Shown piece after piece: positions 3,255 to 25,090 of a stretch of 25,090 nt of DNA (position 1 is its first letter; every line of letters begins with the position of its first letter). The stretch is from the NCBI GenBank assembly GCA_001803565.1, contig MHDQ01000136.1:1-25090 (forward strand), given 5' to 3'. The position numbers were made by a program, and so were the translations under genes. The notes beneath the pieces are model-generated. The model saw only the letters and a list, made by a program, of their open reading frames with translations. It searched no databases and was not told where the DNA came from. The stretch comes from Nitrospinae bacterium RIFCSPLOWO2_12_FULL_45_22 (GTDB lineage Bacteria > 2-12-FULL-45-22).

Positions 3255-3999
3255 ACGGATAATACCATGTTTAGACGTGAAAGATGGTAAGGTAGTAAAG
3301 GGGGTGAATTTCCTTAATCTGAGGGATGCTGGTGATCCAGTGGAAGCGGCGGCATATTATGATGGGCAGGGCGCTGATGAATTGACTTTTTTGGATATTA
3401 CGGCTTCCCATGAAAACCGGCGGTTCATACTGGAAGTGATTGAAAGAACAGCCGAGAAGGTCTTTATGCCCTTGACAGTAGGTGGTGGTGTGAGGGGATC
3501 AGAGGATATCCGGCTACTTTTGAAGGCCGGGGCGGATAAAGTAACTATCAATACTGCTGCAATAAAAAACCCGCAGTTCTTAGCTCAAGCGGCCGAGCGC
3601 TTTGGCAGCCAATGCATTGTATGTGCTATTGATGCCAAGAGGAGGGGAGAAGGCTGGGAGGTTTATACCCATGGCGGTAGGATACCTACCGGCGTAGATG
3701 CCTTAGCCTGGGCTAAGCAGGTGGAAGCGCTTGGAGCAGGCGAGATGCTCCTTACCAGCATGGATCGGGATGGGACTAAACTGGGTTATGACCTGGAACT
3801 TTTGAGTCGGGTCTCGCAACTAGTATCTATACCGGTTATTGCTTCTGGTGGAGCGGGTACTCTAGAACACCTTTACCAGGGTCTGACTCAGGGGAAGGCC
3901 GATGCGGTATTAGTAGCCTCTATCTTCCACTACAAGGAATATACTATCCCTCTTGCTAAGGAGTATCTAAAAGAAAGGGGAGTAGCAGTAAGGTTGTAA
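3244..3999 (+). CDS. hisF: HisF, cyclase subunit of imidazole glycerol phosphate synthase
   Basis: The protein has 251 residues, typical for HisF. This barrel uses ammonia made by the HisH glutaminase to convert PRFAR into imidazole glycerol phosphate and AICAR. The opening [19 protein letters not shown] contains catalytic D11, and VCAIDAKR contains D129. The phosphate-binding motifs LTVGGGVR and IASGGAGT and the segment [14 protein letters not shown] are all intact. The start codon lies inside the end of hisA (11-base overlap). HisH must be encoded elsewhere. The gene is followed by about 35 bases before a new promoter, so the hisAF unit probably ends here. Confidence 0.97.
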
Positions 4000-4036
4000 T
4001 CCCAGCCCGCAATACATCATTTTTTATTACCCTCCC

Positions 4037-4064
4037 TTGACAACTATTCTAAAGAAAATATAAT
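4037..4064 (+). promoter_or_regulatory. Consensus sigma-70 promoter for rpsU-dnaG-rpoD
   Basis: A perfect -35 hexamer TTGACA (4037-4042) is followed after 16 bases by a perfect -10 hexamer TATAAT (4059-4064). Transcription should start near 4071, giving a leader of about 70 bases before rpsU. Its position directly before the macromolecular synthesis operon fits a strong housekeeping promoter read by the RpoD encoded in the same operon. Confidence 0.85.
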
Positions 4065-4121
4065 TAGGACATTTAGGTTTTTAAACGCCGGAGAAAAACA
4101 ATACTAAGGAGGAGAGAATAT

Positions 4122-4163
4122 ATGATTGCGGAGGGGGGGGTACATGCCAGGCATCAAGATTAG
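4122..4163 (+). other. 13-codon upstream ORF overlapping the rpsU start
   Basis: ATG 4122 lies eight bases after a perfect ribosome site AAGGAGG (4107-4113) and opens a 13-codon frame that ends at TAG 4161-4163, across the rpsU start. A run of eight G (4133-4140) lies inside it. With one G fewer, this ATG would be in frame with rpsU. It may be a translational-coupling leader, or the trace of a homopolymer length error or variation. Confidence 0.4.
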
Positions 4164-4332
4164 GGAGAATGAACCCTTTGAAACTGCCTTAAGAAGGTTT
4201 AAAAAGCAGTGTGAACGATCTGGCGTTTTAGCTGAAGTCCGGAAACGAGAACATTATGAAAAGCCAAGTACCAAACGTAAGCGAAAGCTCTTGGTAGCCA
4301 AGAAAAAGACTAATCGCTTACCGCGTTACTAG
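4144..4332 (+). CDS. rpsU: Ribosomal protein bS21
   Basis: From ATG 4144 the protein has 62 residues and opens [20 protein letters not shown], a clear bS21 signature. REHYEKPS and a lysine/arginine-rich tail ([13 protein letters not shown]) follow. bS21 sits in the 30S subunit near the anti-Shine-Dalgarno helix and helps initiation. I chose 4144 because family members begin at this methionine and GGAGG (4130-4134) lies nine bases upstream. A longer frame from TTG 4126 would add six residues. The gene is first in the classical order rpsU-dnaG-rpoD behind a consensus promoter. See the G-run and upstream ORF for an odd feature of the start. Confidence 0.95.
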
Positions 4333-4455
4333 GAATTTCTTCCTTATTATCCCCTTAATCTGTTTAATCTTTCTTTTTTCCTGGGAAGGAAACATCCCGG
4401 TTCAAAAACCTTAACCGCTATCCCTTAAATATCTCAAAAAAGAGGTTAGTGATGG

Positions 4456-6258
4456 ATGGGGATGGCCTGGAGGAGGGTCTTGACCAGGGTAATCGAAGAT
4501 AGACTCCTTGATGAAATAAGGCAAAGAAGTAATATCGTAGAAATTATTTCAGGCTACGTTACCCCACAACCTAGTGGAAGAAATTATAAAGCCCTATGTC
4601 CTTTCCATAGCGAAAAAACCCCATCCTTAATCATAAATCCAGAGCGAGAGATTTTCCATTGCTTCGGCTGTGGAGCAGGAGGCAATGTCTTCAATTTTAT
4701 TATGAAAATAGAGCGTCTCTCTTTCCCGGAAACGGTAAAATTTTTAGCAGAAAAACAGGGTATTAAATTACCTCAATTTAGCCCACCAAGGGTAGACGAA
4801 GGTAAAAGAGAGAGGTTTTATACTATTAACCAACTAGCAGTTGATTTCTTCAAGAGGCAATTATGGAGTTCCCCGGGAGGAGAAAAAGGCAGGGCATATT
4901 TGCAAGGACGAGGGCTTACTACCGATACTATAAAGCTATTCCAGTTGGGTTATGCAGGAGAAGGATGGGATAATTTCACGAAACACATTACCCGGCAGGG
5001 TATTCCCTTAGAGATGGCTGTGGGAGCCGGACTAATCAACAAATCCGATGGCGATAGATATTATGATTTATTTCGCAATCGGGTTATTTTCCCTATATCC
5101 GACATCACTGGCAGGTTTATTGGCTTTGGCGGGCGATGGATTGGTGATGCCGAAGCGAAATATCCTAAATATATAAATTCTCCTGAGACCTTGATTTATA
5201 AAAAAAGTAATAACCTTTATGGCTTAAATTTGGCTAGAGAGGCTATCAGGAAGGAGGGGCATGTCTTTGTAGTAGAAGGTTATTTTGATCTGATTACCCT
5301 GGTCCAAAATAGCATATCTAACGTGGTAGCCAGTCTAGGAACGGCCCTCACTCAGGAGCAGTTAAAGATTTTAAGGCGATATACTAATAATGTAATCCTG
5401 GTATTTGATGGTGATACTGCCGGGAGAGCGGCAATAGTAAAAAAGGCGGAGTCTATTTTAGAGAGTAATTTATGGGTGAAAGTCTTACCCTTACCCTCCG
5501 GAGACGATCCTGATTCTTTTATGAGGAGGTATGGCCAGGAAACTTTTTTGGCCGAAAAGGACAAGGCCTTGCCTTATATGGAATATTTAATTAATATTAT
5601 CCTGGAAGAAAAAGGCTATTCCTCCTTAGAACGAAAGCTTGGATCGCTAGATACTTTGCTGCCTTTGCTGAGCAAAGTAACCAATCAAGTGGAACAGATG
5701 GCCTACCTCTCTTGCATAGCTGATAAGATCAAAATACCACCAACAACCTTATTGGCAGAACTAAAGAAAAGGACCCTAAAACCCCAGGTTGCTAAGGGGA
5801 GTCAGAACAATATTGTTTCCGGGACGTTAAAGCCAGATAAACAAGTCTATGCTGAGCAGGAATTGATTCTATTAGCCTTAAAAGATGAGGAGATGTTATC
5901 TCGGATACACCAAGCCCTTTGCCCAGATAACTTCAAAGATCCGGACATGCGCGAGATTATCCTGGCATTACTAAAAGGTTTTCAGGAAGGGCATCGAAAA
6001 CAAAAGCTATGGAATAATGCTATGGAAGCTTTACTACTGGAGAGACAGAAGTCTTTACTCTCCCAGTTCCTGATTGATGACAGAGAGTATGATGATAAAG
6101 AGAAGGCATTAGAGGATTGCCTTAAGATAATTAACCAACGAGGGTTATCCAGAGCTAATGCCACGGTACTAGAAAATGTTTATCGGGAGGCGATTCTTAG
6201 CGAGCAGTATGATAAGTATGACGAATTACAGAGAAAATATATAGAGCACTTTCGTTAA
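4456..6258 (+). CDS. dnaG: DNA primase DnaG
   Basis: The protein has 600 residues, the usual length. DnaG makes RNA primers at the replication fork with the DnaB helicase. The N-terminal CHC2 zinc domain is complete (C48, H51, C69, C72 in CPFHSEKTPS and FHCFGCG). The catalytic core follows, with the motif YDLFRNRVIFPI and the TOPRIM domain: VVEGYFD with E274, and VFDGDTAGRAA with D318 and D320. The weakly conserved last 150 residues are helical and would be the DnaB-binding domain. The start is ATG 4456, with AGAGG ten bases upstream; an in-frame ATG at 4462 is possible. About 120 bases separate it from rpsU without a clear terminator, and rpoD follows 15 bases after its stop. Confidence 0.97.
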   Translation: MGMAWRRVLTRVIEDRLLDEIRQRSNIVEIISGYVTPQPSGRNYKALCPFHSEKTPSLIINPEREIFHCFGCGAGGNVFNFIMKIERLSFPETVKFLAEKQGIKLPQFSPPRVDEGKRERFYTINQLAVDFFKRQLWSSPGGEKGRAYLQGRGLTTDTIKLFQLGYAGEGWDNFTKHITRQGIPLEMAVGAGLINKSDGDRYYDLFRNRVIFPISDITGRFIGFGGRWIGDAEAKYPKYINSPETLIYKKSNNLYGLNLAREAIRKEGHVFVVEGYFDLITLVQNSISNVVASLGTALTQEQLKILRRYTNNVILVFDGDTAGRAAIVKKAESILESNLWVKVLPLPSGDDPDSFMRRYGQETFLAEKDKALPYMEYLINIILEEKGYSSLERKLGSLDTLLPLLSKVTNQVEQMAYLSCIADKIKIPPTTLLAELKKRTLKPQVAKGSQNNIVSGTLKPDKQVYAEQELILLALKDEEMLSRIHQALCPDNFKDPDMREIILALLKGFQEGHRKQKLWNNAMEALLLERQKSLLSQFLIDDREYDDKEKALEDCLKIINQRGLSRANATVLENVYREAILSEQYDKYDELQRKYIEHFR

Positions 6259-6273
6259 GAGGAGTTAAGGCCT

Positions 6274-8055
6274 ATGGGGAGAAGAGGGGAAAATAAACAA
6301 TTTAACCGATTAATACTCTCAAAAAAGGCCATGGGGGAGTTGACCTATGTTACTGGGAAAGACTTTCTGCCTCATGATCCAGTATCATCTAAACAGATGG
6401 ATGATATTATAATGTTCTTAAATGCTGAAGATATAAGCATACTTGATGGGCAAGAGGAGAGGAGAGACGGTCTTCCGCGAGAGAAAGAAAAGGGAAAAAT
6501 TACCCTCCAAAATGACAAGATGCGGTCTCTGTATGGGGAGGAAGGGGATGGAAAGACGGATGACCCAGTAAGAATGTATTTAAGAGAGATGGGTTCTATC
6601 CCTTTGCTTAGCCGCACCGGAGAAATAGAAATAGCCAAGAAGATAGAAGAGGGGAAAAGTCAAATTATCCAGGCGATTATTGATACACCAATTACTACTA
6701 GAGAGATATGCCTGCTAGTGGAAAATATGAAGACCAATCAGATAGAGATAAGGGATTTTCTTGCCTTAGAAGAGATGGACGAGGATAGTAAGGAGAGGCG
6801 AGAAGAGGCATTTCAAAACGTCGGGCGGAGCAAGCTCTTGAAGGTTATAAAAAAGATAGAATCCGAAAATAAGAAATTAGAATTGATTAAAAAAGAACTG
6901 GAGAGAGGGAACCTCTCTGCTCCAAAGAGGGAGGAATTCCTCACTACGCAAAACAAGATAATAACTAAGATTACTAAATTGCTTAAGAACTTGAGCCTAA
7001 ATCAAGCCCTGATAGCGCGGGTAATACAGAAAATTGATGGGATGGTAAAAAAGATTGAGATGTACGAGAAGGAAATTGCCCCCTGCCAACAGGCGCTCGG
7101 CCTAAAATTGGAGGAATTGCCTAAGGTTATCCGCCAGATGAAGAAGAGCATTGGCGTCCGCAGGGCTCTCCAGCGGAAGATCGGATGGTCATTAGGGGAC
7201 CTTTTAGAATTTGAGAGGCAGATTCGGAATAATAAGCGGAAAATTAAGCGTATTGAAGCCGAAGCTGATGAATCTAAAGAAAAACTCCTGGAGAGGCTGG
7301 AACAGATTAATGAGGGCCGTTTAAAAGATAAACAGGCAAAGAAAGAATTAGCCGAGGCAAATCTCCGCCTGGTAGTTAGTATAGCAAAAAAGTATATCAA
7401 CCGTGGGTTGCAATTTTTGGATCTTATCCAAGAAGGTAATATGGGGCTAATGAAAGCGGTGGAGAAATTTGAATATAAACGGGGATACAAATTCAGCACC
7501 TATGCTACCTGGTGGATAAGGCAAGCCATTACCCGGGCTATTGCCGATCAAGCCCGCACTATCCGGATCCCGGTTCATATGATAGAAACTATTAACAAAC
7601 TCGTTAGGGCAGCCCGCCAGTTGGTGCAGGAAATGGGCCGGGAACCTACACCCGAAGAGCTGGCAAAAAAAATGGACCTGCCCATAGATAAAGTACGAGT
7701 AATACTTAAGATTGCCAAAGAGCCTATCTCGCTTGAGACACCTATCGGCGAGGAAGGGGATAGTCACCTGTGGGATTTCATTGAGGACAAGAAGATTATA
7801 GGGCCTATAGATTCCGTGGTAAAAGCAAATCTGCAAGAGCAGGCCGCTAAGGTTCTTCAGTCTCTGACCCCCAGAGAGGAAAAGGTTTTAAGAAAACGCT
7901 TCGGAATAGGTATAGATTCCGAGCATACTTTAGAGGAAGTAGGTCAGGACTTCGATGTCACCCGGGAAAGGATCAGGCAGATTGAGGCAAAGGCGTTACG
8001 TAAGTTACGCCATCCCAGCCGGAGTAAGAGGCTCAGGAGTTTTGTAGAGGCTTAA
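6274..8055 (+). CDS. rpoD: Primary sigma factor RpoD (sigma-70)
   Basis: This 593-residue vegetative sigma factor directs RNA polymerase to -35/-10 promoters such as the one at 4037. A region 1.1-like segment lies within residues 10-60 ([27 protein letters not shown] is too long to be chance, with the usual acidic tail). Region 1.2 begins at [12 protein letters not shown] (about 97). A long non-conserved region rich in charged helices spans about 140-345. Regions 2.1-2.4 include [33 protein letters not shown] and [15 protein letters not shown]. Region 3 follows, and region 4.2 ends with [20 protein letters not shown]. All are intact. The ribosome site GAGGAG lies about nine bases before ATG 6274. 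It is the third gene of the macromolecular synthesis operon. Confidence 0.97.
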
Positions 8056-17956: not shown

Positions 17957-19570
17957 TTGGCTACAGAAAATAAGGACAAAAAGGAGTTTACTACGGCTTC
18001 TTCTTTGCCGCTAAAAAGCTACTATTTACCTAACGATTTAGCAGGCTGGGACTATTTACAGGACCTGGGTTTTCCAGGCCAATACCCCTTTACTCGAGGG
18101 GTACAGCCTAATATGTATCGGGGCCGGTTATGGACTATGCGGCAATATGCTGGCTATGGCACGGCCGAGGAGTCTAACCAGAGATATAAGTATTTACTCC
18201 AGCAAGGCCAGACCGGCCTCAGTGTAGCCTTTGACTTGCCTACCCAGATGGGCTATGACTCTGACCATCCCCTGGCCGCCGGCGAAGTAGGTAAAGTAGG
18301 CGTAGCGATTGACTCCCTGGAAGATATGGAGAACCTATTCCGTGATCTACCCCTGGATAAGATCAGTACCTCTATGACTATTAATGCGACGGCCATTGTC
18401 TTACTGGCCATGTACCTGGTAGTGGCCGAACACCAAAAAGTGCCGTGGGAGCAACTGAATGGTACGATCCAGAACGATATCCTCAAGGAATATATTGCCC
18501 GGGGGACTTATATCTTTCCCCCTCAACCCTCTATGCGGATTATTACTGATATCTTTAGTTTTTGCAGTCAAAGAGTCCCTCAATGGAATACTATCAGCAT
18601 CAGTGGGTACCATATAAGGGAAGCCGGGGCTAATGCCGTCCAGGAGCTGGCTTTTACCCTGGCCAATGGTCTAACTTATGTCCAGGCTGCCCTGGATGCT
18701 GGCTTAAAAATAGATGATTTTGCCCCCCGGCTCTCCTTTTTCTTTAATGTCCATAACGATTTTTTAGAAGAGATAGCCAAATTCCGCGCTGCACGGCGGA
18801 TTTGGGCACGGTTCATGCGGGATAAGTTTGGGGCCCAAAACGAGGCCTCATGGAAACTCCGCTTCCATACCCAGACCGCAGGCTCTACCCTTACGGCCCA
18901 GCAGCCCAATAACAATATTGTCCGGGTAGCTCTGCAGGCCCTGGCGGCTATCTTGGGCAGTACGCAGTCCCTCCATACTAATTCCCGGGATGAAGCCCTG
19001 GCACTGCCCAGTGAAGACTCGGTGCGGATAGCCTTACGTACCCAGCAACTCATTGCCCATGAATCGGGTGTAGCTAACACCGTTGATCCCCTGGCTGGGG
19101 CTTACGCTATCGAGGCCCTAACCAATCAGATGGAAGAGAAGTGCCACGAATACCTGAGCCAGATAGACCAGCGGGGTGGTGTCTTGAAGGCTATTGAAGC
19201 AGGTTATATCCAGCAAGAGATTCAGGAGAGTGCTTATAAGTACCAACAAGCCCTGGAAAAAGAAGAGGCTATCCAGGTGGGAGTTAATAGATTCCGGCTG
19301 GAAAGGGAAGAAATCGGGATAAAAGGAGAGCTGCTAAAGATTGACCCGGCTGTAGAGAAGAACCAGCGAGAGAAGCTAAGCCGCTTAAAAAAGGCCAGGG
19401 ATCAAAAAGGGGTAGAGGCCGCCTTGAATAATTTGAGACAAATAGCCCAAAGGAAGGATAACCTGATGCCCGCCATTATAGACACCGTCAGGGTGAAGGT
19501 TACTCTGGGAGAGATCTCTGACGAATTAAGAAAAGTATTTGGCGAATATAAAGAAGTACCTGTTTTTTAA
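17957..19570 (+). CDS. Methylmalonyl-CoA mutase, large subunit (catalytic barrel only)
   Basis: The 537-residue protein is the acyl-CoA-binding TIM-barrel part of a B12-dependent mutase that interconverts methylmalonyl-CoA and succinyl-CoA. Conserved stretches include [21 protein letters not shown] with the substrate tyrosine Y64, [29 protein letters not shown] (R194), [11 protein letters not shown] (H219) and [19 protein letters not shown]. It stops before any B12-binding domain (no DxHxxG), so it needs a separate small subunit. No such gene follows; an integron begins 223 bases downstream. The start is TTG 17957 with GGGAGGTG upstream. Isobutyryl- or ethylmalonyl-CoA mutase activity cannot be ruled out, but the active-site Y and R favour methylmalonyl-CoA. 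Confidence 0.92.
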
Positions 19571-19606
19571 GGCAAAGTGCCCATCCTGAGGCAACATATT
19601 TTGGTA

Positions 19607-19640
19607 AATGTCGCCTAGGGCCTAAGTTAAGGCCGACATT
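19607..19640. other. Dyad symmetry after the mutase gene
   Basis: AATGTCG (19607-19613) and CGACATT (19634-19640) pair, with an inner GGCCT/AGGCC hairpin. A second small hairpin (TCCAAC/GTTGGGA) follows near 19651-19667. These may terminate mutase transcription, although no T-tract is present. The remaining bases to 19793 are A+T-rich and presumably carry the start signals of the integrase remnant; I see no clear promoter. Confidence 0.35.
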
Positions 19641-19793
19641 AGCCGGCCGCTCCAACGCTTTGTTGGGACAAAGAAAAGCTGGATCATCAAAGTCTCTGAT
19701 TGCCTAATATTTCTATCCCCTGTTAAAATAGTATATCAGCTAAGCAATACTAACTAATAAGTCTACAAATTATTCGGCTACAGTATATTTGTC

Positions 19794-20659
19794 ATGATAA
19801 AAATTAGACCAGGAGCAACAGGAAGGATAATTGTAACCTTCCCTTATAGTCCTGACCATATAGCAAAGATCAAGACTATCAAAGATCACCGGTGGCATCC
19901 CGAGGAAAAATACTGGAGCTTTCCATACTCAAAATGGGTCCTAACAGAAATTCTGTCTCTGTTCGCTGGAGAAGATATGGAAATTGACCCATCCTTACAA
20001 GCCTTGATATCACAGGATCAAAAGAGAAGATTAGGGAATGATAAAATCTGGGGAAAGAATCCACTGCCAACTGAATCGAGAGAAACAAGGAAAGAAAAGC
20101 CGCAGTGGGATAGTACTTTTGGCGAAATGAAGAACGACCTGCTTTTCGGCCAAGTCCGAGAACTTATCCGGTTAAAACATTATTCCATACGGACAGAACA
20201 CACTTACCTCTCCTGGATCAAGAGATATATTCTTTTCCATAATAAACGGCCTCCGAATGATATGGGAAATCAGGAAATCGGGGCCTTTCTCTCCCATTTA
20301 GCTGTTGATTTGAAAGTATCAGCTTCAACTCAAAACCAGGCCTTCAATGCCTTATTGTTTTTGTATAAGGAGGTTCTCAAAAAGGATTTGGATGATTCAA
20401 TTAACGCCATTAGAGCCAAGAAGCCGAGACGATTACCGACGGTCATGACTAAAGATGAGACCATGAAAGTAATTGGTGCTATGTCGGGTAATTATCAATT
20501 GATGGTAAATTTTATTCCGCCACGCATCTATTGGAGGCAAACTATGACATAAGGACAGTGCAGGAGATGCTGGGTCATAATGATGTCTCAACTACCATGA
20601 TTTACACCCACGTGTTAAATAAGCCAGGGATAAGCATAAAAAGTCCATTGGATATTTGA
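19794..20659 (+). pseudogene. intI: Integron integrase IntI, internally deleted and frameshifted
   Basis: The first frame (19794-20552) encodes an N-terminal extension (1-70, GRIIVTFPYSPDHIAKIK and WHPEEKYWSFP, HARP-like), then the core-binding domain of integron-type tyrosine recombinases (RELIRLKHYSIRTEHTYLSW, FLSHLAV, STQNQAFNALLFLYKEVL). It breaks off after GNYQLMVNF. The C-terminus resumes in another frame just downstream: [20 protein letters not shown] and [12 protein letters not shown], to TGA 20657-20659. About 130 residues are missing, including the first catalytic arginine and the HxxR box. The catalytic tyrosine remains. The junction is near 20505-20520. The enzyme must be inactive. 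It reads in the same direction as the cassettes. Confidence 0.9.
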
Positions 20660-20743
20660 CATTGTCAGATATCTTTTTTATAGTACAAGAGCGTTCTGTA
20701 AAAAACGAGAATAATTGTGTTATACAGAAGAATTTCTGTATTT

Positions 20744-20788
20744 TCTAGTGGAGTTGAGCGGCCCTATGGGGTCCGCTCCGCGTTAGAC
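20744..20788 (+). other. attC-like or attI junction site before cassette 1
   Basis: The core GTTAGAC (20782-20788) fits the GTTRRRY insertion site. TCTA (20744-20747) pairs with TAGA (20784-20787), and GAGCGG (20756-20761) with CCGCTC (20773-20778), giving a short imperfect hairpin like a truncated attC. It lies 123 bases after the integrase remnant, where attI or a first attC is expected. At 45 bases it is shorter than usual attC sites. Confidence 0.55.
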
Positions 20789-20833
20789 TTCTTAATTGAT
20801 TTACACGCGGATAAGATATTCTGAGATTATGTA

Positions 20834-22024
20834 GTGGAGAAGGGTTGTTCAAAAGTGATTGAGACATTTATACCGTTACATGGTGCGGGAACTCACTATT
20901 TCACGGGAAGCACAGAGTATTACGATATGCTGTGGGGGCCATTCTTCCCAGGGGCAATCCATGGCATCACCTTGCTGATATCGGATACAATTATTATAGA
21001 TGCTTTTTGGAGGGAATCGGTTGATCCCGGAGTTTGGGAGGATTTGGTGACTTGCAGTGTCATTAACGAACTGATACAGCGGAACATAATACAAGAGATC
21101 AATATCCGGAAGGAATTAAATCCAAATCAATTTCGGCAAGAACTGGGAGTAGGATTAGCGGAATCGATGAAATTTTGGATACGTCACAATCGAGCTGCAT
21201 TACCAAAGCGCTTGATAGAAGAGACACATGATAACCCCTATGAGGCTTTGCAATTGCTGAAAACAGGACGTGTTCCTGAATCATTAAGGGTTCTTGTGCG
21301 TGGACTGGATATATCTCTGACAGGCATTTACACGAGTATTGTTGCAGGCCGTATTTGCTCAAGAATTCATGACCCACAAGGCTATTTAAGATCCTATAAT
21401 TGCCTCGTACACAGTAATTGCCGGAAGTCGGTGGATGAAGAAAACGTTGACCGTATCGTAGCAATCTGTAGCGAGAGCCTCCCTGAGATTCCCATATTCT
21501 TATCAAAAGAAAACGAACCAACTGTACCTGATCCACCTGCAGCAGCGGAGGGATTTACTTTACAAGACCATCCAATGTGTGACAAAGACAAAACGATGAA
21601 GAACCTGGAAAAAATACTATCCGTCCGGGATTCTGGTGCCTGCAAAGACCTACGCGCAACTTATAGAAGCACATTGGAACGTGTCATGAAAGCCAAAGCT
21701 GAACTGTCTTTTTATGTTGAAAAAGAAGATTTCCATAAGCAATGGGCACTGGCGCGTGCAGAAATGCATAAGCATCTGGCTATTAGTAAGAAGTTTGAGC
21801 AATGGACCGACATCTTGACAATACCAGCATTCGTTGCTTCCATATTTCTTCCTGCAGCAGGCGCAATCCCCTTTGTCTCTTGGGCTGCTACAAAAGTAAC
21901 ATCTGGGTTGGCCACAAGGAAGGTTCTTATAGAATATCCCTGGCTTTCTTTGGCGGAACAAATGGGCGATCTCGGATTAGAACTAAAGAAGTCTTTTCTT
22001 AGAGATCGGGTTATAGATAATTGA
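20834..22024 (+). CDS. Integron cassette protein of unknown function (396 aa)
   Basis: I recognise no family. The N-terminal half has ordinary globular composition (THYFTGSTEYYDMLWGPFFPG, then helices around LRVLVRGLDISLTGIY) with cysteines in CLVHSNC. A proline-rich linker (PTVPDPPAAAEG) near residue 230 leads to a helical C-terminal half. That half contains one strongly hydrophobic stretch, ILTIPAFVASIFLPAAGAIP, which could insert into a membrane. No signal peptide is seen. The frame starts at GTG 20834; GTG 20855 is preceded by GGAGAAGG at a good distance and is a likely alternative. Cassette 1 runs from the core site at 20782 to the attC ending at 22120. An accessory defence or toxin role is only a guess. 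Confidence 0.7.
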   Translation: MEKGCSKVIETFIPLHGAGTHYFTGSTEYYDMLWGPFFPGAIHGITLLISDTIIIDAFWRESVDPGVWEDLVTCSVINELIQRNIIQEINIRKELNPNQFRQELGVGLAESMKFWIRHNRAALPKRLIEETHDNPYEALQLLKTGRVPESLRVLVRGLDISLTGIYTSIVAGRICSRIHDPQGYLRSYNCLVHSNCRKSVDEENVDRIVAICSESLPEIPIFLSKENEPTVPDPPAAAEGFTLQDHPMCDKDKTMKNLEKILSVRDSGACKDLRATYRSTLERVMKAKAELSFYVEKEDFHKQWALARAEMHKHLAISKKFEQWTDILTIPAFVASIFLPAAGAIPFVSWAATKVTSGLATRKVLIEYPWLSLAEQMGDLGLELKKSFLRDRVIDN

Positions 22025-22034
22025 GATTTGAAAA

Positions 22035-22120
22035 GTCTAACAAATCAATTAAGGCGACGGGTCATAGCCTGTGCCTTTTGCGGAAGCTGTTGCCCCCGCG
22101 CCTTATTTCAAACGTTAGCT
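22035..22120 (+). other. attC recombination site of cassette 1
   Basis: An 86-base site is bounded by R'' GTCTAAC (22035-22041), which matches RYYYAAC exactly, and R' GTTAGCT (22114-22120), with one mismatch to GTTRRRY. The inner arms AATTAAGGCG and CGCCTTATTT are imperfectly complementary, so the bottom strand can fold as integrase requires. The site begins 11 bases after the stop codon of the cassette gene. Confidence 0.9.
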
Positions 22121-22130
22121 CTTATTCGCT

Positions 22131-23096
22131 ATGAGCCAAGCCGCATTCGTCCTACGCATCGCGCCTGGTGGCGAAGACAAAGTGCCTGAAGCCCTGCGCG
22201 CGGATCAAATTATTATCGGGTGGGCTGAGGCCGAAGGGTTACTCAATCCCAACCTCGATTGGGAGCCGTTCCGCGAGATCGTTCGCGACGCCTACTACTC
22301 CGACGAACCTACTCTACGGAAGGCTGGTGCGGCTGCCGGTCACATGTGGCGCTTTATCCGTGACATGAAGCCCGGCGATCTCGTGGTGGTTCTATACGGG
22401 GCGGACTTTTTTGTATCGGAGATCGCGGGTCCCGCCACTTACAACTCTGCGAAGGTAGATGAAGACTCGGCTTACCGACGTCCCGTTCGATGGCTGAACG
22501 GCAAGAAGCCGATCCCACGTCAGCTAGCGCGTTCGGCGTTGCTGTCGCGCATGAAAACTCAGGGAACATCCGCTGACGCGACGGATCTACTGGATGAGAT
22601 AAAGGAATGCCTGAATCTGGCAGCGCATGGAGAAGCGCCGACCTTTGAAAAGGATTTACAGTCGCGCTTAGTTCGCGAGGTCCTAGCTGAGTTACGTAGC
22701 GGTCGTATCGAGAGCTTTGGGTTTGAGCGCCTTATCCAGACCGTTTTGCGAAACTTAGGCGCCAAAGAAGTGCGTATTGTCCCCCGCAGTGAAGACAAAG
22801 GCGCCGACCTATTAGCCACTTTCCGTGTGGCGGGCACATTTCAACAGAGCATTGCGGTTCAGGCCAAGCACTGGCAACCGGACCCGCCGGTCGGGCGCGA
22901 GGTAGTTGACCAACTCATTCGCGGGATCGAGGCTGAGTCTACCAATCTAGGCATGGTGATCACATCTGGCGCGATCTCAGATGAAGCGTATCAAGCCGCC
23001 GAACAATACTTTGAGGAGAAGGGAATTCGAATTGAGATGGTTGATGGCGAGCAGTTCGCCAAGCTGATCGTCGAGCATGGAATCCGCACGAGCTAA
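22131..23096 (+). CDS. EVE/PUA-like plus Mrr-type restriction endonuclease (cassette 2)
   Basis: The 321-residue protein probably cuts foreign or modified DNA. Residues 1-165 resemble a PUA/EVE-like base-reading domain: GWAEAEGLL, MKPGDLVVVLYG, VSEIAGPATY and RRPVRWLN. Residues 190-315 are an Mrr-type PD-(D/E)xK nuclease: GFERLIQTVLRNLGA, EDKGADLLATF with D226, IAVQAKHW with Q244 and K246, then LGMVITSGAISDEA. A reader plus nuclease layout suggests modification-dependent (type IV-like) restriction, which needs no methylase, and none is present. ATG 22131 lies ten bases after the attC core without a ribosome site. The TAA stop lies inside the next attC. G+C is visibly higher than in the neighbours, a sign of separate origin. 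Confidence 0.85.
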   Translation: MSQAAFVLRIAPGGEDKVPEALRADQIIIGWAEAEGLLNPNLDWEPFREIVRDAYYSDEPTLRKAGAAAGHMWRFIRDMKPGDLVVVLYGADFFVSEIAGPATYNSAKVDEDSAYRRPVRWLNGKKPIPRQLARSALLSRMKTQGTSADATDLLDEIKECLNLAAHGEAPTFEKDLQSRLVREVLAELRSGRIESFGFERLIQTVLRNLGAKEVRIVPRSEDKGADLLATFRVAGTFQQSIAVQAKHWQPDPPVGREVVDQLIRGIEAESTNLGMVITSGAISDEAYQAAEQYFEEKGIRIEMVDGEQFAKLIVEHGIRTS

Positions 23097-23177
23097 CTCC
23101 AGGTCGAACGGACGGGCCGCCAGCACCGTGCGTGTTTACCCGTCCGTGCTGGCCCGCCGTTCACCAAAACGTTAGGC
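23091..23177 (+). other. attC recombination site of cassette 2
   Basis: An 87-base site runs from AGCTAAC (23091-23097) to GTTAGGC (23171-23177). The inner arms, GAACGGACGGGCC and GGCCCGCCGTTC, pair almost fully, giving a strong hairpin with an extrahelical base. The stop codon of the nuclease gene (23094-23096) is part of the R'' box. Confidence 0.92.
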
Positions 23178-23205
23178 CAAGACAAAACAGCGTTGGAGGA
23201 TAAAT

Positions 23206-24150
23206 ATGGCAAAGAGAATCAGTATCATAAATTTTAAGGGTGGCGTTGGAAAGACAACTTTCGCGTTTCAGTTCGCGGCGGGCCTCGTTCGATACCACGA
23301 TGCGCGCGTCCTGCTAATTGACATGGATCACCAAAGCAGCCTCTCCATTGTTTGCTTGACAGCGCCGGAATGGTCCACCATTGTGAAGGCGAAGCTTACG
23401 GTCAATGAGGTTTTTAGACCTTTCATCGGTCAAACCAGCTCATTTCCAGATAAAACGATAATTAAGCAGAGGGCGATAAAAAGGATTTCTTATTCTACGA
23501 ATTACGACAAGCTGGATTTGGTTCCGGCAAGCCTTCAACTGGATGATATTGAGATTGATCTCACAGCGTCCCATCACGGGAATGCGATTCATTCAGAGTG
23601 GGATAAAAGAACCTTGATTTGCAGATGGCTCGAAGAAGCGAATGTCGACAAAGAATACGACTACATAATTTTTGACTGCCCACCAGCGACAAAAATAGTC
23701 TCGCAAAATGCAATCGCTGCAAGTCATGGTTACATCATTCCAGTTGTGCCAGAAGCTGTGATGGAGCGTGGAGCTCCACATCTGGCCGCAATGATTAAGG
23801 ATGGAATCGACGCTAGATTAAAAGCGCTCGCTTCGCTGGGAACAAAACGGAAGACGCACGTGCCAGATACCGAACTGGTTGGCGTGGTGATTACGCGCAT
23901 CAGAACCCACGGCCCGGCCCAGTCCGGTTATACCGATGACCACACTCGTCATCTTGCTTCTCTTCAAAGACAATGGGGTACGATGTTGATTGAACCTTAT
24001 ATTCCAGAAGGAACTGGAATTTCACAGGCATTGGATGATGGCGTTCCAGTCTATGAACGTTCTGGAACCCAAAATATCGGTGGACGAGGACTCAACAAAA
24101 TATATCAAAACCTCACTGATGCCTTGAAGGTCCGGGTTGATGCGCTATGA
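23206..24150 (+). CDS. ParA/Soj-like ATPase in an integron cassette
   Basis: The 314-residue protein of the deviant Walker (ParA/MinD) ATPase class has the signature lysine box FKGGVGKTT (K11, K16), the A' box LLIDMDHQSSLS (D39, D41) and Walker B YDYIIFDCPPA (D157). Such ATPases dimerise on ATP, often on DNA or membranes, and move or position partners. There is no N-terminal DNA-binding domain as in plasmid ParA of type Ia. The next gene overlaps its stop by four bases (ATGA), so the two are a coupled pair; no ParB or centromere-like repeats are visible. A good ribosome site, TTGGAGGA, precedes ATG 23206. The cassette starts at the GTTAGGC core 23171. Confidence 0.9.
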   Translation: MAKRISIINFKGGVGKTTFAFQFAAGLVRYHDARVLLIDMDHQSSLSIVCLTAPEWSTIVKAKLTVNEVFRPFIGQTSSFPDKTIIKQRAIKRISYSTNYDKLDLVPASLQLDDIEIDLTASHHGNAIHSEWDKRTLICRWLEEANVDKEYDYIIFDCPPATKIVSQNAIAASHGYIIPVVPEAVMERGAPHLAAMIKDGIDARLKALASLGTKRKTHVPDTELVGVVITRIRTHGPAQSGYTDDHTRHLASLQRQWGTMLIEPYIPEGTGISQALDDGVPVYERSGTQNIGGRGLNKIYQNLTDALKVRVDAL

Positions 24151-24641
24151 CACCAAGCAAAGACCGAAGTCCAATACCCGAACTCCCGTTAGAAGCTCAG
24201 TACGGGAAACTATCTAATGATGAGCTTGCAAGTTTCTTAAAACGTTTGGCTGTGCTCTACAAGTCGCCAGCAACCGGCAATCTCTCATTGAGTGAAGCGC
24301 TCGAGGAGCTCGCCTCCTGGGTCAGCAAACGAGCAACTGTTTCAAAGACCTCATCAACAACATTACGCAAGCAGAAAACGCTGGGTAAACCGGCACTCGA
24401 TATAACGCAATTGAAGGCACTCGACATAAAAGAGGTTGAGAAATTTATAGCTGATGAACGAAAATCAAAAATCGAACTTATTGAGCTGGCGTCCGCCCGG
24501 TTTTCTATTCCACGTTCTCAGTTAAAACGATTAAGGACAGAAGAGGTGCGTGAAACTATCAAGGCTGCGTGCCTGCATGAAGACTCTATAGAAATTATCT
24601 CGCAAGAGGCGCGGCGGGAGGGCTTAAATCGCTCTTCCTAA
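24147..24641 (+). CDS. Small partner of the cassette ParA, unknown family
   Basis: The 164-residue protein is translated from an ATG that overlaps the parA stop (ATGA), so the two are made together. It is charged and mostly helical. A segment near residues 24-60 (LSNDELASFLKRLAVLYK) is helical, a serine/threonine/lysine-rich linker follows (KTSSTTLRKQKTLGKP), and the C-terminal half (IKEVEKFIADERKSKIELIELA and SRSQ-like PRSQLKRLRTEEVRETI) recalls small DNA-binding SAP-like helices without a clear match. By position it could be a ParB-like adaptor or cargo of the ATPase. This is inference, because I recognise no family. Confidence 0.75.
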   Translation: MTPSKDRSPIPELPLEAQYGKLSNDELASFLKRLAVLYKSPATGNLSLSEALEELASWVSKRATVSKTSSTTLRKQKTLGKPALDITQLKALDIKEVEKFIADERKSKIELIELASARFSIPRSQLKRLRTEEVRETIKAACLHEDSIEIISQEARREGLNRSS

Positions 24642-24647
24642 TGGGTT

Positions 24648-24698
24648 AGCTAACAGAACCTTTGTCCAGCTCTATGATGAAGAATACAGGGGTTAGCC
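24648..24698 (+). other. Candidate short attC of cassette 3
   Basis: AGCTAAC (24648-24654) equals the R'' box of cassette 2 and lies six bases after the stop of the ParA partner, where an attC should begin. GTTAGCC (24692-24698) is a good R' core, and the outer boxes pair over six bases. The inner arms pair poorly and 51 bases is short, so this is tentative. TTGACA (24700-24705) with TAAAAT 15 bases later follows directly and may be a weak promoter. Confidence 0.4.
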
Positions 24699-24801
24699 CT
24701 TGACAGGCTGTTGAAATAGGTAAAATGACTGTCAAGTTGGCAACGGATTTACTCGAACTTAGGGATAATCGGGGGACATAATATCAATTTCTGGCAGGTC
24801 G

Positions 24802-24915
24802 ATGACAATAAGGAGTTCGGAAGACACCTTACTTAATTATTCCTCGACTTGCGGATGGAAAGTGCGGAGAAAGAGTCATTTCTTAACATTGGACAGAATG
24901 AAAGTTTTGGCCTAA
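24802..24915 (+). CDS. Possible 37-aa ORF of a short cassette
   Basis: The ATG-started frame ends with a TAA that lies inside the R'' box GCCTAAC of the next attC, the same geometry as in cassette 2. The peptide (MTIRSSEDTLLNY at its start) has no recognisable family and no good ribosome site. The 24699-24909 stretch may equally be an ORF-less cassette. Apart from the weak promoter-like hexamers I see nothing else there. Confidence 0.25.
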   Translation: MTIRSSEDTLLNYSSTCGWKVRRKSHFLTLDRMKVLA

Positions 24916-24999
24916 CCATTTAATCCAGCCGACCGGGAATAAGCTGGCGGGTTTTTTCATTCAGCCCTGTGGCCCGGCGGCTGAATTCGAACGTTATCC
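24910..24999 (+). other. attC recombination site of cassette 4
   Basis: A 90-base site runs from R'' GCCTAAC (24910-24916, an exact RYYYAAC) to R' GTTATCC (24993-24999, close to GTTRRRY). The inner arms AATCCAGCCGACCGG and CCCGGCGGCTGAATT pair well with an extrahelical base. The array therefore continues beyond the right edge; bases 25000-25090 would be the start of cassette 5. Confidence 0.85.
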
Positions 25000-25090
25000 A
25001 ACGATAAGAGAAGTCATAGAAAAGCACAGGAAGTCAATCTATAAAGGCTGGCATGGATCGTCAAAATCTGAAAAGACTCTACCTTGACAT

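Follow-up and report, generated by a model that had tools for sequence, protein, structure and literature searches.

An integron cassette of Nitrospinae bacterium RIFCSPLOWO2_12_FULL_45_22 encodes a ParA-type ATPase together with a small partner protein of helical structure. The two genes appear to constitute a mobile accessory module that is self-contained and, judged from its genomic context, has most probably been selected for defence against phages or other mobile DNA. We tentatively propose that this pair and a sister clade of similarly organized pairs may represent a new class of defence against phages or other mobile elements, in which a ParA-type ATPase switch would be combined with a fast-evolving adaptor, with integron cassettes, P2-like prophages and P4-like satellites as vehicles.

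Cassette architecture and genomic context

The window, i.e. the whole stretch of DNA analysed here (25,090 nucleotides), is a complete contig (G000:C136) and contains three attC-like hairpins, all with GTTRRRY-type boxes, which bound genes of a single orientation in the manner of integron gene cassettes (Table 1). The ParA/partner cassette begins at the R' box GTTAGGC (23171-23177) of the hairpin that ends the upstream cassette, and its closing hairpin carries the boxes R'' GCCTAAC (near 24910) and R' GTTATCC (24993-24999). As no further attC-like fold was seen between these two hairpins, the ATPase and its partner are considered to share one cassette of approximately 1.8 kb. The cassette that would follow is not visible because the window comprises the complete contig.

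The first-pass annotation had described a ParA/MinD-class ATPase and a basic helical protein of 164 aa, overlapping by ATGA and travelling as one unit. Both ORFs (314 and 164 aa) are indeed present with a 4-nt ATGA overlap, through which translation of the partner is predicted to be coupled to that of ParA, and a GGAGG motif resembling a ribosome-binding site (23195-23199) is located directly 5' of the ATPase start. The two genes thus do occupy a single cassette, but the rarity that the annotation had attached to this arrangement needs qualification, as two-gene cassettes are not extraordinary and include known toxin-antitoxin and defence cassettes. The non-coding 3' stretch of the cassette (24642-24905) lacks both repeat arrays and ORFs of at least 60 aa, and a search of positions 19500-25090 against Rfam returned no match. 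An 8-bp inverted repeat (CTTGACAG/CTGTCAAG) is present near position 24700 of this non-coding tail; by estimate, such a repeat could be expected by chance in a sequence of that length.

The neighbouring upstream cassette encodes an Mrr-type restriction endonuclease corresponding to the PADLOC candidate PDC-S02. The product of the first cassette (20834-22024), a protein of 396 aa, has a stretch of hydrophobic residues at its C-terminus and matches no family of Pfam, PADLOC or NCBIfam. The integrase encoded in cis is broken past position 124 of the 315-position profile; its central part is lost and a C-terminal remnant lies out of frame at approximately 20530-20660. An additional N-terminal stretch of the broken integrase gene (19794-20660) has a weak HARP match. 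Further integrase relatives are present elsewhere in the same genome, and integron cassettes can persist without a functional integrase in cis. The host's own soj-spo0J locus is separate and located on contig C134.

Table 1. Coordinates of the ParA/partner cassette and neighbouring integron features in the window.
Feature	Position	Strand	Description and evidence
Broken integron integrase	19794..20552	+	N-terminal half only; NCBIfam integrase_gron 8.5e-43, profile 3-124 of 315
attC-like site of first cassette	22035..22121	+	Hairpin with GTTRRRY-type boxes
Mrr-type restriction endonuclease, neighbouring cassette	22131..23096	+	321 aa; Mrr_cat 2.9e-22; PDC-S02 7.9e-26
attC-like site, end of upstream Mrr-like cassette	23086..23178	+	Hairpin, complementary core-site ends; DNA fold -23.3 kcal/mol, bottom strand
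ParA-type ATPase gene	23206..24150	+	314 aa; Pfam AAA_31 5.8e-32, family alignment, Soj comparison
Helical partner gene	24147..24641	+	164 aa; ORF, homologues adjoining the ATPase in L002, L003, L004, L006 and L007; AlphaFold2 model
3' non-coding stretch of cassette	24642..24905		264 nt; ORF and repeat search
attC-like site closing the ParA/partner cassette	24906..25001	+	DNA fold -17.4 kcal/mol, bottom strand

Distribution and conservation of the gene pair

When 84,980 species genomes were scanned with a sequence pattern, four relatives with ATPases 60-81% identical were recovered (L002 to L005), and IMG/VR viral contigs, which were searched as well, yielded L006 and L007; all family counts are lower bounds. 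In a Chloroflexota MAG (L002) and on a gammaproteobacterial chromosome (L003) the pair forms an isolated insertion among metabolic genes, and in a Paracoccaceae MAG (L004) it is found near a transposase and small unknown genes. Downstream of the pair in L003 (6490-6700) there is a degraded second copy of the C-terminal part of the upstream AMP-ligase gene, perhaps a trace of the pair's insertion. The relative from a Nitrospirota MAG (L005, 5001-5549) is a decayed copy, with a truncated ATPase that ends after approximately 178 codons and no partner on the contig. L006 (ATPase 71% identical) resides in a P2-like prophage, and L007 (ATPase 49-50% identical, partner 18%) has a DNA methyltransferase downstream. 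Also beside the L007 pair (3443-6818), the methyltransferase is followed by three orphan proteins, two of which have ferredoxin-type domains, a neighbourhood that is possibly an undescribed restriction-like cluster. The relatives other than L007 are chromosomal or prophage-borne, and inspection by eye, rather than by a systematic attC scan, revealed no cassette structure around the other members. Approximately 1,450 further genomes of Gammaproteobacteria, Chloroflexota, Nitrospirota and the class of L004 contained no new member, with only the seed genomes recovered among the candidates scored, and the family is thus regarded as rare and patchy. The only addition from a DCPPATKIV motif scan of IMG/VR (L025) was a chance match in a tail gene and was rejected.

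A homologous partner directly follows the ATPase in all six intact loci (the window, L002, L003, L004, L006 and L007); the two genes overlap by 4 nt in all of these except L007, where 38 nt separate them. A partner profile search of the five other records recovered exactly one copy in each, adjoining the ATPase. This constant adjacency is in line with the first-pass view of the pair as one unit, and no intact homologous ATPase without a partner, named there as a sign to the contrary, was found. The AAA_31 match and the homologues in other phyla, 61-71% identical and each followed by a homologous partner, indicate that both genes are real. Identity to the window proteins amounts to 61-71% for the ATPase and about 21-42% for the partner (with L007 lower on both), and the partner diverges much faster than the ATPase.

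It is very improbable that the pair is a type I plasmid or phage-plasmid partition locus caught in a cassette, with a centromere-binding partner and a centromere nearby. The ATPase belongs to the ParA/Soj superfamily, the order of ATPase and small basic partner resembles type Ib loci, and the window partner has a weak match to RHH_1 (E 0.023, below the cut-off), but this match is absent from the other five family partners. No ParB-family match was obtained for the partner, and no ParB gene was found near any family member. Furthermore, neither a family member nor a partner is present in the 72,556 plasmids of PLSDB, where the best ParA is 31% identical among the matches listed, and no relative shows plasmid or oriC-adjacent carriage. 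The flanks of the seven loci contain no iteron-like repeat families or repeat arrays on either side, a search that a degenerate or distant centromere could escape, and the attC R' box leaves only 28 nt before the ATPase start. The first-pass annotation had placed the pair away from any plasmid or ParB gene, which agrees with the absence of ParB nearby, the separate host soj-spo0J locus and the lack of a plasmid setting in the family; the plasmid partition locus with ParB and parS in relatives that it had held out as the counter-case did not emerge. Anatomy and distribution of the pair fit a self-contained mobile module under its own selection, not a plasmid partition locus.

Features of the ATPase and its partner

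The ATPase contains the motifs of the ParA/MinD (Walker A cytoskeletal ATPase) superfamily, namely a deviant Walker A (KGGVGKTT, residues 11-18) with the signature Lys11, an A' motif and a Walker B motif (DYIIFDCPP), and its closest solved relatives by sequence are Soj proteins. This core is common, at the sequence level, to the Soj/ParA chromosomal partition ATPases (Helicobacter pylori Soj, PDB 6iub, and the host Soj on C134). In contrast to Soj, the family ATPase is 50-60 aa longer, carries family-specific inserts (e.g. GNAIHSEWDKRTLICRW) and a C-terminal QNIGxRG, has GTG at the position of NVR when compared with the host's own Soj, and is paired with an unrelated small helical protein instead of ParB. 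Hester and Lutkenhaus are said to have found in 2007 that Bacillus subtilis Soj binds DNA through R189 and R218; both of these arginine positions are replaced in all six family members of the alignment. The structure model of the ATPase has a mean pLDDT of 59. In PADLOC-DB 2.0, no curated model was matched; the similarity of the ATPase to PDC-M28B (E 4.8e-4, 17 bits) is short and limited to the Walker A region.

The partner is a basic protein (pI 9.35, net charge +4.6) predicted to be all-helical, consisting of a disordered N-terminus, a helical hairpin (24-64), a disordered linker (66-82) and a C-terminal helical domain (86-163), with EARREGLNRSS as its C-terminal tail. Its AlphaFold2 model is of moderate confidence (mean pLDDT 70.5, pTM 0.39). 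No convincing family was identified in Pfam, PADLOC, NCBIfam or PHROGs, and neither PDB sequences nor a tblastn search of plasmids and phages gave anything usable. When the model was compared with known structures, the best Foldseek match had an E of 0.49 and the VIA-align matches (best Z 5.6) were scattered over common helical bundles, and therefore no fold is assigned. None of the six family partners has a Rho_N or SAP match, and their alignment contains no stretch conserved enough for scanning sequence collections.

The combination of a ParA/MinD-type ATPase with a small unrelated adaptor is also the plan of the McdAB carboxysome positioning system (PMC6328274, PMC12204374), and the disordered segments and helices of the partner would be compatible with a role in which ATPase gradients place a protein assembly bound by the partner. 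Such cargo positioning is nevertheless highly unlikely for the family, as no microcompartment, carboxysome or other shared cargo genes are found beside L002-L004, L006 and L007 and the Soj DNA-binding residues are missing. In addition, the C-terminal tails of the family partners lack the Trp that is reported as invariant in McdB (PMC11321042).

A sister clade in P4-like satellites and P2-like phages

Among the plasmid matches listed, the ATPase with the best bit score is that of Pantoea agglomerans, in which a plasmid (L038) encodes a sister ATPase followed by its own 149-aa partner. This plasmid has a separate RepB-linked ParA-type ATPase and ParB elsewhere, which further argues against a partition function of the pair. 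In three P4-like satellites from IMG/VR (L043, L044 and L045) and on a Klebsiella chromosome (CP125156), sister pairs are always located between the P4 integrase and psu, and in a P2-like phage (L046) the pair is immediately beside gpQ, with the gpA side absent from the contig. Anti-phage hotspots have been described both at psu-int in P4-like satellites and at gpA-gpQ in P2-like phages (PMC9122126). Between the sister pair and psu, L043 contains an AbiU-like gene (AIPR 5.5e-32; AbiU 3.5e-33) and L045 a RexA-like gene (1.3e-12) and a gene for a small probable membrane protein. The RexA-like protein and this 150-aa companion (L045, 7495-8908) probably constitute an exclusion system of the RexAB type, found here in the different setting of a P4-like satellite hotspot. 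In a Klebsiella satellite (L041, 11053-12402), the sister ATPase gene is in fragments and the partner is frameshifted or unannotated.

The sister clade is the closest outgroup of the family ATPase. Sister ATPases score 148-155 bits against the family profile compared with at most 85 bits for 15 other ParAs, group with the family in the tree with moderate support (87/85), and match it in a profile-profile comparison with an E of 1.2e-42. The sister modules (L043, L044, L045, CP125156, L046 and L038) resemble the family in the ATPase inserts, the gene order with overlap or near-contact, the partner size (136-149 aa) and the mobile setting, and their ATPases have GDG in place of NVR, with loss of the arginine. 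They differ in that the ATPase is only approximately 30% identical to that of the family, similarity between the partners is undetectable (hhalign probability 0.4%), and three of the five sister partners have a weak, sub-threshold Rho_N match (best 2.3e-4, 21.5 bits against a Pfam cut-off of 24.9). A search of 369 Gammaproteobacteria with the sister profile, run without a positive control, gave no match, as did a distant DNA search of E. coli genomes with the Pantoea pair. No published description of the sister module was found in the literature searched.

A probable role in defence

The recurrence of family and sister pairs at spots where phages and satellites carry anti-phage genes suggests that the pair is probably a defence module rather than a plasmid partition locus. 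For the sister clade, defence-type locations include the psu-int interval, the position beside gpQ and the AbiU-like and RexA-like neighbours. In the family itself, such locations are confined to the Mrr cassette next to the window pair, the DNA methyltransferase of L007 and the P2 orf30 locus, at which the L006 pair is inserted between gpV (baseplate) and gpS (tail completion) and which is one of three P2 loci known for horizontally acquired genes (PMC3091744). About 20% of Vibrio cholerae cassettes without predicted function have been reported to encode anti-phage systems (PMC12444791). The hotspot argument is based on small numbers of loci and is strongest for the sister clade, reaching the window family via the ATPase only, since sister and family partners are not demonstrably homologous. 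The occurrence in phages partly reflects ascertainment, as IMG/VR consists of viral contigs only; the position of the pair inside the phage is unaffected. Against a defensive role, L002 and L003 have metabolic genes around them and no neighbours related to defence, and the L004 pair has a transposase and small unknown genes nearby. From the roles that the first-pass annotation had suggested (positioning, defence or array stabilisation), defence is favoured by the positions of the family and the sister clade, whereas array stabilisation is unsupported, with the other members outside visible integrons.

In the mechanism we envisage for a defence module, the ATPase would function as an ATP-dependent dimer switch, while the partner would bind a target, either nucleic acid or an invader protein, and control the ATPase, so that activation would block replication or inheritance of the invader. 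Loss of the Soj DNA-binding arginines in the ATPase, together with the sub-threshold Rho_N matches in some sister partners, suggests that nucleic-acid binding may be supplied by the partner rather than by the ATPase.

Defence could also be directed at plasmids instead of phages. ParI, a ParA-type orphan ATPase encoded on a genomic island of Pseudomonas putida, acts against other mobile DNA by destabilizing IncP-7 plasmids, and the passage describing it mentions no partner gene (PMC9178275); the likeness is drawn from that description, not from sequence. An ATPase acting as a decoy, with a partner of its own, could likewise disturb the partition of incoming plasmids. We consider such an incompatibility factor unlikely, because the sister copies occupy hotspots of phages and satellites that are directed at phage competitors, identity of the family ATPase to plasmid ParAs reaches only approximately 30% among the matches listed, and loss of the Soj DNA-binding arginines would be odd for a partition decoy. 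Family or sister pairs are carried by several P4-like satellites as well as by a P2-like prophage and a P2-like phage, as would also be expected of a phage or satellite accessory pair with another benefit, such as lysogenic conversion, helper interference or regulation of the carrier, which occasionally drifted into integrons and chromosomes. This explanation has a similarly low probability in our assessment, as the integron cassette and the chromosomes of distant phyla without phage suggest a benefit that is independent of the carrier.

The known roles of ParA-type ATPases lie in the movement of chromosomes, plasmids and organelles, and no description of a ParA-based defence system was found in the literature searched, the coverage of which is incomplete. 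The pair adds another type of cargo common to integrons and phage or satellite hotspots. If this branch of the ATPases defends cells, the same molecular switch would have been recruited into immunity, and the module would constitute a small, easily cloned two-gene system.
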